From: Terriglobus roseus | Lineage (GTDB): Bacteria > Acidobacteriota > Terriglobia > Terriglobales > Acidobacteriaceae | DNA: 64,000 bases | Direction of reading: 5' to 3' | NCBI RefSeq assembly: GCF_900102185.1 | Contig: NZ_LT629690.1 | Span: 310,001 to 374,000, forward strand | Shown here: positions 5,769 through 16,471 of the stretch, in pieces | How positions within the stretch are numbered: the stretch's first letter is position 1 | How the letters are laid out: every line of letters begins with the position of its first letter | Program-made: the position numbers and the translations under genes | The notes under the pieces: generated by a model | The model's database searches: none | Told to the model about the DNA's origin: nothing | The model's input: only the letters and a program-made list of their open reading frames with translations

Positions 5769-8700
5769 ATGTCGAAGGAAATTTATATCTCCACAACGCC
5801 GCATGAGACGCGGCTGGCCATCGTCGAAGACGAGCAACTGGCGGAGATTTACTACGAACGCGAGAACGAATACACACTCGCAGGCTCCATTTACAACGGA
5901 AAAGTGACCCGCGTGCTGCCAGGCATGCAGTCGGCGTTTGTCGACATTGGCCTGGAGCGCGATGCCTTCCTGTATGTCACCGACTTCATGGAAGAGCAGG
6001 GTGACTCCGCAGATTTCGATTCCAGCGAAAGCAACGGTGGCGGCGGTGGTGGTCGTCGTGGCGGACGCGAGCGCGGTGGTCGTGAACGCGGCGGACGGGA
6101 TCGTGAGCGTGGTGGCGAGCGTCGCCAGGCTTCGGATGCTTCTGCAGAGACCGAAAGCACTGTTTCTTTTGATGAGCCGATTGCACCTTCGCCGACTGAA
6201 GGCGTGGGCACGATTGATGCAGAGGGGACGGGTGGCAGCCGACGGTGGCGTGGACGTCGCGGACGTCGTCGCGGTCGTGGTCGCGGTGAATCGCCTGAGG
6301 TTACGGCAACGACTGCGGATGATACCGAGTCGGTGACGATTGAAGGCGGTTACGACGAGGACGAAGAGACGACCTCGTTGAATGCTGCTGATGAAACCAG
6401 CGCTATTGAGATTGATCTTTCTGCTGAGGCTGAAGCGCCGACGCAGGGTTATAACCCGAGCCAGGGCCGTGAGCGCGGTCGTAAGGATGATCGTCGCGGT
6501 GGCCGTGGTGGACGGGATCGTCGTGGACGTAACGGTGGGCGTGACCGCGATCGTGGTGAACGTAACAGCCGTCCGGCAGAGGCTCCGCTGTATGACAACA
6601 GCTATGCGGGATACGATGCACCGGAGGACCTGCTGCCGGAGTCGACGGGTGAGCCGATTGTGCTGCCCGGAGAGTCGATCCGTAAGTATCGTGACCCTGC
6701 CGAAGTAGCCGCGGAAGAAGAAGAGGCACGGAAGAACGCGCCGCCGAAGGCTGAGGTGGTGACGGTTTCTACGCCGTCGATTGAGATTGTGGGTTGGGAT
6801 GGTGGTTCGGTGTTGCCGGGCGAGACGCTGTCGCGCCATAAGAATCGTGCGCCGAAGGTTGTTGCTCCTGCAGTTGCAGAAGCTCCGGAACCCGCGCTTT
6901 CGCCGGAGGTGGAAGAGGCGCTGAGTGCTGATGCTGGCGCGGCCTTCGATGATGTGCCGGTTGCTCCTGTTGTGGAAGATGCGGAGCCGGTGGCACCTGA
7001 GGCCGAGTTTGAAGTGGCCCCGGTGACCGAGGTTGTTGAGGTCACTGAGCCGGTTGAGTATGAGCCTTCTGAAGGCGAGAGCGTGAGTGTGAAGGATGAG
7101 ACTCGCCGCGATCTTCGCCGCTTTGAGCAGGAGCCAGATAAGCCAGAGATTTCTGCAGAGGCGGAAGCCATCATCGAAGCCGAGACGGATGCGATTGGCG
7201 AGAGCACTGAAGAAGTTGAGTATGTAACGGCGGCAGAGCCTGCGGAGACAGTGGCTGCAGAAGAGGCCATTGAAACGGGTGCGGAGACTGACCCGACTAC
7301 TTATGATCTGCATGCTGAAGCGGAGACTGTTGCGGAGCCGAATTTCGCTGCTGAACCTAACTTCTCTACGCTGCAGGCTTCGGGCGAGTTGTTGTCAGTT
7401 ACTGCTGGTGTGGAAGAGCAGGGTGTATCGCCGATTGCGCAGCAGGATATCTATGAGCCTGCAACGCCGGTCGCGGTTGAAGGTGCAGTGCAGTCTGTGA
7501 CGCTGGCTGAGGCAGAGACCACGCCGGAACCGGTGGAGTCTGAAGAAGAGTTCCAGCCGCAGATTCATGCGTATGGCGATGGCGACTTCCACGAAGAAGA
7601 GATCGACGAGGAAGATGAGTTCGAGTACGAAGCTCTGACTGGCCACGCAGACGACGAAGAAGACGAGTACGAAGAAGAGACGCTGGAGGGTTCGTCGGAT
7701 CTGGGCGGTGTGTTGCACGAGATGCACCTGGACCGGGAAGTACAGACCGAAGAGTTTGACGAGGAAGAGGATGCCAGCGGTGGATTCACCGAGGCTGACT
7801 TTGCCGGTGGTGATGAGGAAGAAGAGGAAGAGCCTTCCGAGTCTTCGACCAGTGAACCGAAACCGGAACGCAACGAGCGCAGCCGTCGTGGTGGACGTGA
7901 TCGTCGCGGAGGTCGCAACAGTGGTGGCGATCGTGGACGTGGGCGTCGTCAGTCAGTGCAGACGCAGGACCTGCCGGCGATCAACGAATTGCTGAAGCCG
8001 GGTCAGGAGATTCTGGTTCAGATTGCGAAGGAGCCGATTGCAAAGAAGGGTGCGCGTATTACTTCGCACATCGCTTTGCCGGGACGCTTCCTTGTCTTCA
8101 TGCCGACGGTGAATCACACGGGCGTGTCGCGCAAGATTTCATCGGATGACGAACGTCGTCGTTTGAAGTCGATTCTGTTGTCTGAAAAGGGCGATGCGCA
8201 GGGTGGATTCATTGTGCGTACCGCTGCGGATGGTGCGAGCGAAGAAGAGCTGCGTACCGATCTGCGCTTCCTGATCCAGATCTGGACTGACATTAAACAG
8301 CGGTCGGAGTCTTCGAAGTCGCCTGCGCTGATCTATCACGATCTGAATCTTGTCGAGCGTATTCTGCGCGATCAGGTGACGGACAACTTCTCTGCGATCT
8401 GGGTGGATACGGAGCAGGAGTATGAGCGTGTATTGCGCTTCCTGCAGCGCTTCCAGCCGTCGCTGGTGCGTCGTGTGAAGTTGTACACGAAGGAGACGCC
8501 GGTCTTTGAACACTTCGGCATTACGCAGGAGATTGATAAGGCGCTGAAGTCGAAGGTGTGGCTGAAGTCGGGTGGATCGATTGTGATCAACCAGACGGAA
8601 GCGCTGGTGGCTATCGACATCAACACCGGTAAGTATGTTGGTAAGACGGCTCGTCTGGAAGACACGATTGTGAAGACGAACCTGGATGCGATTCCGGAGA

Positions 8701-15999: not shown

Positions 16000-16233
16000 T
16001 TAGGGATGGCATTGAACCGTAATGGTGTCCATGCCGCTGAGCCTGTGAAGCAATGCTTCAATGCGATAGGCATGTTGCACTTCGCAGTCGAAACGCACCG
16101 TGATGGTGATGGTGTTCTGACTGCTTTCACCGGTAAAGGAGCGGATGTTGACTCTCTGCGTTTCAAAGACCTGAAGCACTCTTTGGAAGAAGAGATGTGT
16201 CTGCGTTGCGCTTAATTCGAATGTCCATGTCAT
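16000..16233 (-). CDS. Small ACT-domain protein, IlvM-like acetolactate synthase regulatory subunit
   Basis: A 77-residue single ACT domain closely resembling E. coli IlvM in length and pattern: an N-terminal strand (MTWTFELSAT), a helix (LFFQRVLQVFETQRVNI), a central strand (NTITITVRFDCE) and a final helix-strand (RIEALLHRLSGMDTITV). IlvM-type subunits bind the acetolactate synthase catalytic subunit, but no ilv catalytic gene lies next to it; downstream is the converging GH106 gene, 14 bases away. AGCAGGAA upstream is a plausible Shine-Dalgarno. The opposite-strand open frame over the same bases is a shadow. The 5' region carries a candidate attenuator, consistent with amino-acid control. 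Confidence 0.75.
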   Translation of the reverse strand: MTWTFELSATQTHLFFQRVLQVFETQRVNIRSFTGESSQNTITITVRFDCEVQHAYRIEALLHRLSGMDTITVQCHP

Positions 16234-16249
16234 AAGTTGTTTCCTGCTG

Positions 16250-16285
16250 AAAATGAAAATGCCACCTACCCGCTTGGGTGGTGGC
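16250..16285 (-). terminator. Candidate attenuator terminator upstream of the ACT gene
   Basis: Read on the minus strand, GCCACCACCC (16285-16276) pairs with GGGTAGGTGGC (16271-16261) around AAGC with one bulged A. It is followed by the U-rich run ATTTTCATTTT (16260-16250). The 5' arm can instead pair with an upstream GGTGGCC at 16332-16326 inside the leader peptide, giving an antiterminator. This is the classical layout of amino-acid attenuation. Not tested. Confidence 0.6.
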
Positions 16286-16311
16286 CATGAGCTGTCGGAA
16301 TGTAAAAGCGT

Positions 16312-16425
16312 CTAAGTCGCTATCCGGCCACCCATGGCAGAAGTAATGCAAATCGGAAGAATCGCGCACACGGTGCATACCTGCGAGCGAAGCGAAAGTC
16401 CGAGATGGAGGTTGGTCGGGTACAT
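16312..16425 (-). CDS. Candidate leader peptide of the ACT-gene attenuator (37 codons)
   Basis: A short frame beginning MYPTNLHLGL and ending with a TAG before the terminator hairpin. It contains five Leu, four Ile, two Val and four Thr codons, with the cluster AILPICITS lying immediately before the GGTGGCC segment that could form the antiterminator. Ribosome stalling at these codons when branched-chain amino acids are scarce would leave the antiterminator free. The predicted transcription start lies only about ten bases before the ATG, so no proper Shine-Dalgarno would be transcribed. A different frame starting MHRVRDSS is an alternative. The peptide is inferred from arrangement only. Confidence 0.4.
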   Translation of the reverse strand: MYPTNLHLGLSLRSQVCTVCAILPICITSAMGGRIAT

Positions 16426-16441
16426 ACGTTTGTTGTCCTGA

Positions 16442-16471
16442 GTTATACCAAATTGCTCTTTCCGCTCGCAA
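16442..16471 (-). promoter_or_regulatory. Putative promoter of the ACT-gene leader
   Basis: On the minus strand TTGCGA (16471-16466) and TATAAC (16447-16442) are separated by 18 bases, a good sigma70-type match. It drives toward the leader peptide and ACT gene. It lies just before the divergent TIGR03435 gene. Confidence 0.6.

Follow-up and report, generated by a model that had tools for sequence, protein, structure and literature searches.

The window, a 64,000-nucleotide stretch of the Terriglobus roseus genome (contig NZ_LT629690.1, positions 310,001 to 374,000), carries on its minus strand a compact unit in which a promoter-like sequence is followed by a short leader frame, a terminator-like hairpin and the gene for a small stand-alone ACT protein (Table 1). 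A preliminary description had read this unit, from the letters alone, as an ilv-type transcription attenuator in front of an orphan IlvM-like ACT protein. The leader frame, the GGTGGCC motif, the complementary terminator arm, the U-rich run and the 77-codon ACT gene all lie where that description had placed them, and the promoter sequence it proposed is present as claimed; a strict consensus scan of the region called neither promoter nor terminator. Folding of the window sequence on its own was only mildly better than chance (z = -1.88; 5 out of 200 shuffles matched or exceeded its stability). At gathering scores Rfam found nothing in the window and only tRNAs in 16 loci of relatives, and an ARAGORN scan of the window found nothing. 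With the fold z-score and the consensus scan both giving weak signals, comparison with relatives was needed to decide.

Table 1. Features of the attenuator–ACT unit, with positions numbered from the first letter of the window.
Feature	Position	Strand	Basis or remark
Promoter-like TTGCGA-N18-TATAAC	16442..16471	minus	Read from sequence; kept in congeners bar a few changes
Promoter boxes: TTGCGA, 18 nt spacer, TATAAC	16471-16466 (TTGCGA); 16447-16442 (TATAAC)	minus	Read from sequence
Leader frame, 37 codons, ATG (16425) to TAG (16312), ending in CAILPICITSAMGGRIAT*	16312..16425	minus	Ile (ATT) cluster near the end
Segment 2, GGTGGCC, within the last leader codons; putative 5' half of the antiterminator	16326..16332	minus	Sequence and covariation
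Segment 3, terminator 5' arm	16276..16286	minus	GGCCACC (16286-16280), complementary to segment 2
Segment 4, terminator 3' arm with bulged A (16267)	16261..16271	minus	Sequence, folding and covariation
Terminator hairpin, bulged A at 16267	16285-16261	minus	Read from sequence
U-rich run ATTTTCATTTTC after the hairpin	16249..16260	minus	Sequence; invariant in both congeners
AGGAA, ribosome-binding-site-like	16241..16245	minus	Read from sequence
ACT gene, 77 codons, probable IlvM-type orphan AHAS small subunit	16000..16233	minus	Purifying selection, small-subunit clade, predicted ACT fold

Within the genus the unit is present in 3 out of 19 genomes, the window's own included, and the leader, used as a DNA query against the genus, gave three strong matches, the remainder being at chance level. 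Neither congener shows any change in leader length, in GGTGGCC or in the terminator; from promoter to ACT gene, indels are confined to the spacer behind the leader. At one congeneric locus, L007, a glycosidase gene has been lost from one flank and ~720 nt are missing within the other neighbour; the leader and the ACT gene are retained. As judged by comparison of the window with this locus, the ACT gene evolves under purifying selection (dN 0.017, dS 0.33, dN/dS about 0.05). The leader peptides of the same pair differ by 8 nonsynonymous codons and 1 synonymous codon, with the Ile codons retained, and the peptide as a whole is not under purifying selection in this comparison. The frame claimed for the leader is kept both in the congeners and in distant relatives.

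A contig scan with the window protein alone as the query found no relative. A profile built from three proteins, run against 399 genomes of the class, detected homologues in further genera of the family. A wider profile run against 398 family genomes, with at most 13 candidates per genome scored – further orphans may therefore exist – detected a short stand-alone homologue (E below 1e-17) in at least 18 genomes and a two-domain homologue of 191–200 residues in at least 3, all from one genus. We refer to these 18 and 3 genomes among the matches listed as the 21 carriers. In one of them (G213, locus L078) the orphan ACT frame is interrupted by an in-frame stop; the leader and the terminator look intact. 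The attenuator model R1, trained on 20 of the carriers' leaders, matches upstream of the homologue in 21 out of 21 carriers, where 20 matches are to its own training sequences and that in G552 is independent. In the nine relatives first inspected, with neighbouring genes named by eye, the unit lies downstream of leuB in six, after a RimO/MiaB-like gene in two and elsewhere in one; given these different neighbourhoods, the attenuator and the ACT gene move as one piece. In none of the loci seen does the ACT gene adjoin ilvB.

The alternative stems were compared across 20 leaders, a set that contains near-copies (the window and its two congeners). Terminators of -18.7 to -25.8 kcal/mol were parsed in 19 out of 20, and the twentieth (L077) was recognised by eye. 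Pairing of the leader end with the terminator 5' arm was above the shuffle mean in 20 out of 20; in 13 of them p is at most 0.05, and the segment 2 pairings of the other seven are singly not below p 0.05. Where the arm reads CCACC, segment 2 is mostly GGTGG, and where it reads CCGCC, segment 2 is mostly GGCGG or GGCGC; segment 4 tracks the arm. Segment 2 fits this pattern more poorly in L042, L079 and L080. Native 2:3 and 3:4 pairs outscored swapped partners in 10,000 out of 10,000 permutations of the 20 leaders, a result that holds with 17 representatives. For the terminator, 97.6% pairing and two compensatory pairs were found on a trimmed alignment; the antiterminator, in a register picked by best fit, shows 78.6% pairing, with 15 out of 500 shuffles reaching its score. 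Covariation is thus found in both stems (0 out of 10,000 permutations), more weakly in the antiterminator than in the terminator, and argues that a mutually exclusive antiterminator is maintained.

Equilibrium folding with a stalled ribosome in place favoured the terminator in 20 out of 20 leaders. The same outcome was obtained for E. coli ilvL and ivbL at the positions tried, and equilibrium folding therefore does not discriminate; with the terminator favoured at equilibrium, it is the order of synthesis that must decide. Even without its 3' arm the RNA is folded, at -12.2 to -32.2 kcal/mol, and some of these folds may be exactly the 2:3 stem.

As to the amino acid that is read, Ile-rich tails are found in 20 out of 20 leaders compared: among 380 leader-tail codons, 85 are Ile, 16 Leu and 15 Val. 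ATT accounts for 73 of the 85 tail Ile codons, as compared to 50 out of 173 in ten genes of the window. The preliminary description had noted an Ile/Leu/Val/Thr-rich cluster; its isoleucine part recurs across the relatives, while Leu, Val and Thr do not form a conserved cluster, and we conclude from codon content that the amino acid sensed is isoleucine specifically. Counted back from the last base of the leader stop codon, the central base of segment 2 is 8–19 nt away, and 10 nt away in 13 of the 20, so near the stop that a ribosome there would cover segment 2. The ribosome footprint, as given in PMC4833913, extends ~12 nt downstream of the codon, and a ribosome stalled on the earlier Ile codons would accordingly leave segment 2 free. 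In seven leaders (L037, L038, L044, L068, L071, L075 and L076) a TATGCT-like -10 box is located only ~7 nt 5' of the leader ATG; because of this short distance, the leader transcript may be leaderless in those seven genomes.

What does the attenuated gene encode? No curated family model reaches its cut-off with the window protein, the best being ACT_4 (20.7 of 27 bits), and NCBIfam gives no match; the IlvM model matches the relatives' proteins under its cut-off. The predicted fold is a single ACT domain (beta-alpha-beta-beta-alpha-beta; pLDDT 81 over 77 residues). A PDB sequence search with the window protein returned nothing at E up to 1, and a fold comparison returned many ACT domains as neighbours, with nothing at E 0.001 or better and the AHAS III small subunit (2f1f) at rank 46; the comparison displays the ACT fold and does not name a partner. 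Ancestry is better defined. In the tree the orphans group as a single clade that excludes canonical IlvN (support 99/97 and 99/91), the three two-domain members of this clade pass the cut-off of ALS_ss_C, the C-terminal domain of AHAS small subunits, and the orphan profile reaches canonical IlvN with E-values down to about 1e-12. On these grounds the ACT protein descends from AHAS small subunits.

The effector-loop glycine, which we take to be the same residue as the glycine changed in AHAS III, is missing from E. coli IlvM and, with G213 excluded from the alignment, from 20 out of 20 clade members. Both E. coli IlvH and E. coli IlvN have it, as do 21 out of 21 canonical IlvN proteins. The clade and E. 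coli IlvM also share a two-residue gap. According to PMC5727371, AHAS III becomes valine-insensitive when a conserved glycine is changed, at a site where AHAS II shows no conservation. The tree, with its long branches, places E. coli IlvM with E. coli IlvN and IlvH, apart from the orphans; since it does not join the two, the likeness between the orphans and IlvM, i.e. the lost glycine and the gap, may be convergent.

We consider it probable, on ancestry and motif, that the ACT protein works as an AHAS small subunit. Inspection of 18 weaker profile matches (18 genes from 18 loci, two of these loci being the same place and one locus holding two copies) yielded 16 canonical IlvN with the glycine and with no attenuator match upstream. 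At one such locus (L222, G480) two near-identical canonical ilvN genes lie ~8.7 kb apart on one contig, and a masked or partial assembly is possible there. Proteins of G008 and G517 (L213:1077-1955 and L218:1655-2536, ~293 residues) match the orphan profile only and combine ACT with a CBM9-like domain, over the family cut-off in one and under it in the other, with no attenuator match. Their existence means that profile kinship is no proof of AHAS function, and slightly lowers the odds for small-subunit function, for a valine-insensitive swap and for the full scenario of IlvN displacement given below.

The preliminary description had found no acetolactate synthase beside the ACT gene and suggested looking for the catalytic subunit elsewhere. 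None adjoins the gene; the genome does encode IlvB at C1:2969315-2971018, with IlvN at C1:2972165. Exactly one AHAS large subunit is found over the family cut-off in 21 out of 21 carriers, and a canonical IlvN is present in the fetched region in all 21. The T. roseus genes form an array, leuA-leuB-leuC-leuD-ilvD-ilvB-ilvN-ilvC (mostly named by eye), in which only a short stretch separates a TATACT from the leuA start. The ilvB–ilvN gap of the window genome (L011, about 7000-8130) contains a transposase-like frame on the opposite strand and a GNAT-like frame, both recognised by eye. Applied to 22 loci around the carriers' ilvB, searched upstream to ~9 kb where the contig allowed (almost none in G692, ~3 kb in G191), R1 gave no attenuator match. 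Among 19 carrier ilvA loci R1 matched only that of G534, where ilvA stands behind the attenuated small subunit, and it recovered four out of four positive controls; in G692 and G552 the ilvA search gave no match. With no R1 match at ilvB, and G534 alone at ilvA, the isoleucine signal in carriers would, as far as R1 sees, go to the small subunit.

Outside the carriers' small-subunit loci, we inspected 29 distinct further sites among the R1 matches listed (at most 8 candidates per genome scored). In 23 the leader suits the downstream gene, as judged by eye and weakly so for L161 and L142; 11 of the 23 gene products were checked with family models and the others were named by eye. The remaining six (L138, L139, L143, L170, L172 and L173) have no fitting leader. 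The 23 comprise 9 sites before ilvA, 1 before ilvD-ilvB, 1 before ilvB in another family, 2 before PaiB-like genes, 6 before aspartokinase genes, 3 before sulfur-related genes and 1 before a hisI-like gene. Those before ilvA, encoding threonine deaminase, have Ile leaders and occur in Acidobacteriaceae that lack the orphan (L131, L132, L134, L137, L141, L161, L163, L165 and L168; the L131 product is confirmed by NCBIfam). Ile/Val-rich leaders with terminators precede ilvD-ilvB in G039 (L160) and ilvB in G444 (L136). The aspartokinase genes follow Thr leaders, often with Met or Ile too (L130, L135, L142, L145, L167 and L171; three checked with models). Leaders with Cys runs and terminators precede a TauE/SafE gene, a nitrite/sulfite reductase gene and an NMT1-type binding protein gene (L140, L144 and L169), and a leader with five consecutive His codons precedes the hisI-like gene (L162, G536), whose product matched no family model at the threshold used. 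Finally, in L164 and L166 Ile leaders stand before a PaiB-like gene, which is followed by a citramalate-synthase-like gene (under cut-off).

Such attenuators before amino-acid genes look undescribed for Acidobacteria. Our literature search, in which subscription journals were thinly covered, retrieved neither an attenuated orphan AHAS subunit nor a functional leader-peptide attenuator in Acidobacteria. A comparative study of attenuation was reportedly published by Lopatovskaya and others in 2010.

The closest known counterpart is E. coli ilvL, the leader of ilvXGMEDA (AHAS II), which likewise has Ile codons and a leader end complementary to a terminator arm (GTGCGGGG with CCCCGCAC). The ilvL leader, however, has many Val and Leu codons besides those for Ile and stands at the head of an operon of pathway genes, whereas the attenuator of the window reads Ile and precedes a single orphan subunit gene. 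The product of that operon's ilvM resembles the orphan in loop and gap, yet is not joined to it by the tree. E. coli ivbL is also a leader-peptide attenuator before an AHAS gene (ilvBN), but has a Val/Leu leader and precedes the genes of both the catalytic and the regulatory subunit. The carriers' own canonical IlvN shares a homologous N-terminal ACT domain with the orphan and differs in having two domains and the loop glycine, in adjoining ilvB and in giving no attenuator match. The ilvA and ilvD-ilvB attenuators of Acidobacteriaceae match the same R1 model and share the Ile tails and the layout; they head enzymes, while the carriers' switch heads a regulatory subunit.

We have little doubt that a ribosome-mediated transcription attenuator is present. 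The reading that best accounts for the locus is that an isoleucine-sensing attenuator controls a one-gene unit for an IlvM-type AHAS small subunit, to which we assign a probability of roughly 0.8, counting in its favour the attenuator in 21 out of 21 carriers, the Ile tails and the permutation result; the covarying stems, the kept leader frame and the catalytic subunit encoded elsewhere likewise support what the preliminary description had proposed. When Ile-tRNA is ample, the ribosome would reach the leader stop and cover GGTGGCC, the terminator (3:4) would form and transcription would stop before the ACT gene. When Ile-tRNA is scarce, we infer that the ribosome stalls on the ATT cluster, so that segment 2 could pair with segment 3 ahead of synthesis of the 3' arm, and transcription would run on into the ACT gene. 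The ACT protein would then join IlvB, the sole AHAS catalytic subunit, either alongside IlvN or in its place; without the effector-loop glycine, the ACT protein might make AHAS less valine-sensitive, allowing isoleucine to be made despite an excess of valine. We propose the joining of IlvB and the relief from valine because of the ancestry of the protein, its lost glycine and the ability of excess valine to starve cells of isoleucine via the shared enzyme. A valine-insensitive subunit swap is proposed tentatively, at slightly under even odds. The full scenario, in which isoleucine attenuation has moved from the enzymes onto a stand-alone IlvM-type subunit that displaces IlvN and yields, by an inducible swap, a valine-resistant single AHAS, is marginally more doubtful still.

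The main rival keeps the attenuator and changes the partner: the ACT protein could serve another enzyme of isoleucine or leucine synthesis (IlvA, or a LeuA- or citramalate-synthase-like enzyme) or be a free isoleucine sensor. The gene order in G534, where ilvA comes next after the attenuated small-subunit homologue, the position downstream of leuB in six of nine relatives and the AHAS family model fits under cut-offs would all agree with this. However, IlvA of the window genome already has its own ACT domain, the two-domain clade members carry the AHAS small-subunit C-terminal domain, and the orphan profile extends to canonical IlvN; we consider another partner unlikely. Far less probable is that the ACT gene is a decaying small-subunit fragment and the attenuator a relic. 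While 1 of the 18 short copies, that of G213, has an in-frame stop and the gene is found in only a minority of the genus, the low dN/dS, the retention of the unit at L007 while its neighbours decayed and the attenuator in every carrier make this reading already unlikely. Least probable of all is a chance leader frame followed by an ordinary terminator or by a regulatory site that a protein binds, a reading that would suit the weak single-sequence signals and the leader peptide's lack of overall purifying selection but not the Ile-rich tails with segment 2 right before the stop in 20 out of 20 leaders, the three-way covariation of segments 2, 3 and 4, or the sites of like layout at which Thr, His or Cys codons precede a matching gene.

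Returning to the proposed IlvM-type small subunit under isoleucine attenuation, its interest lies in the contrast with E. coli, whose several AHAS isozymes are not equally sensitive to valine (PMC5727371). The unit suggests another solution, namely one AHAS plus a second regulatory subunit induced by starvation, with the attenuator placed on the regulator rather than on the enzyme, and it predicts subunit exchange on AHAS. If this is true, one catalytic gene would do in these bacteria what E. coli does with separate isozymes.
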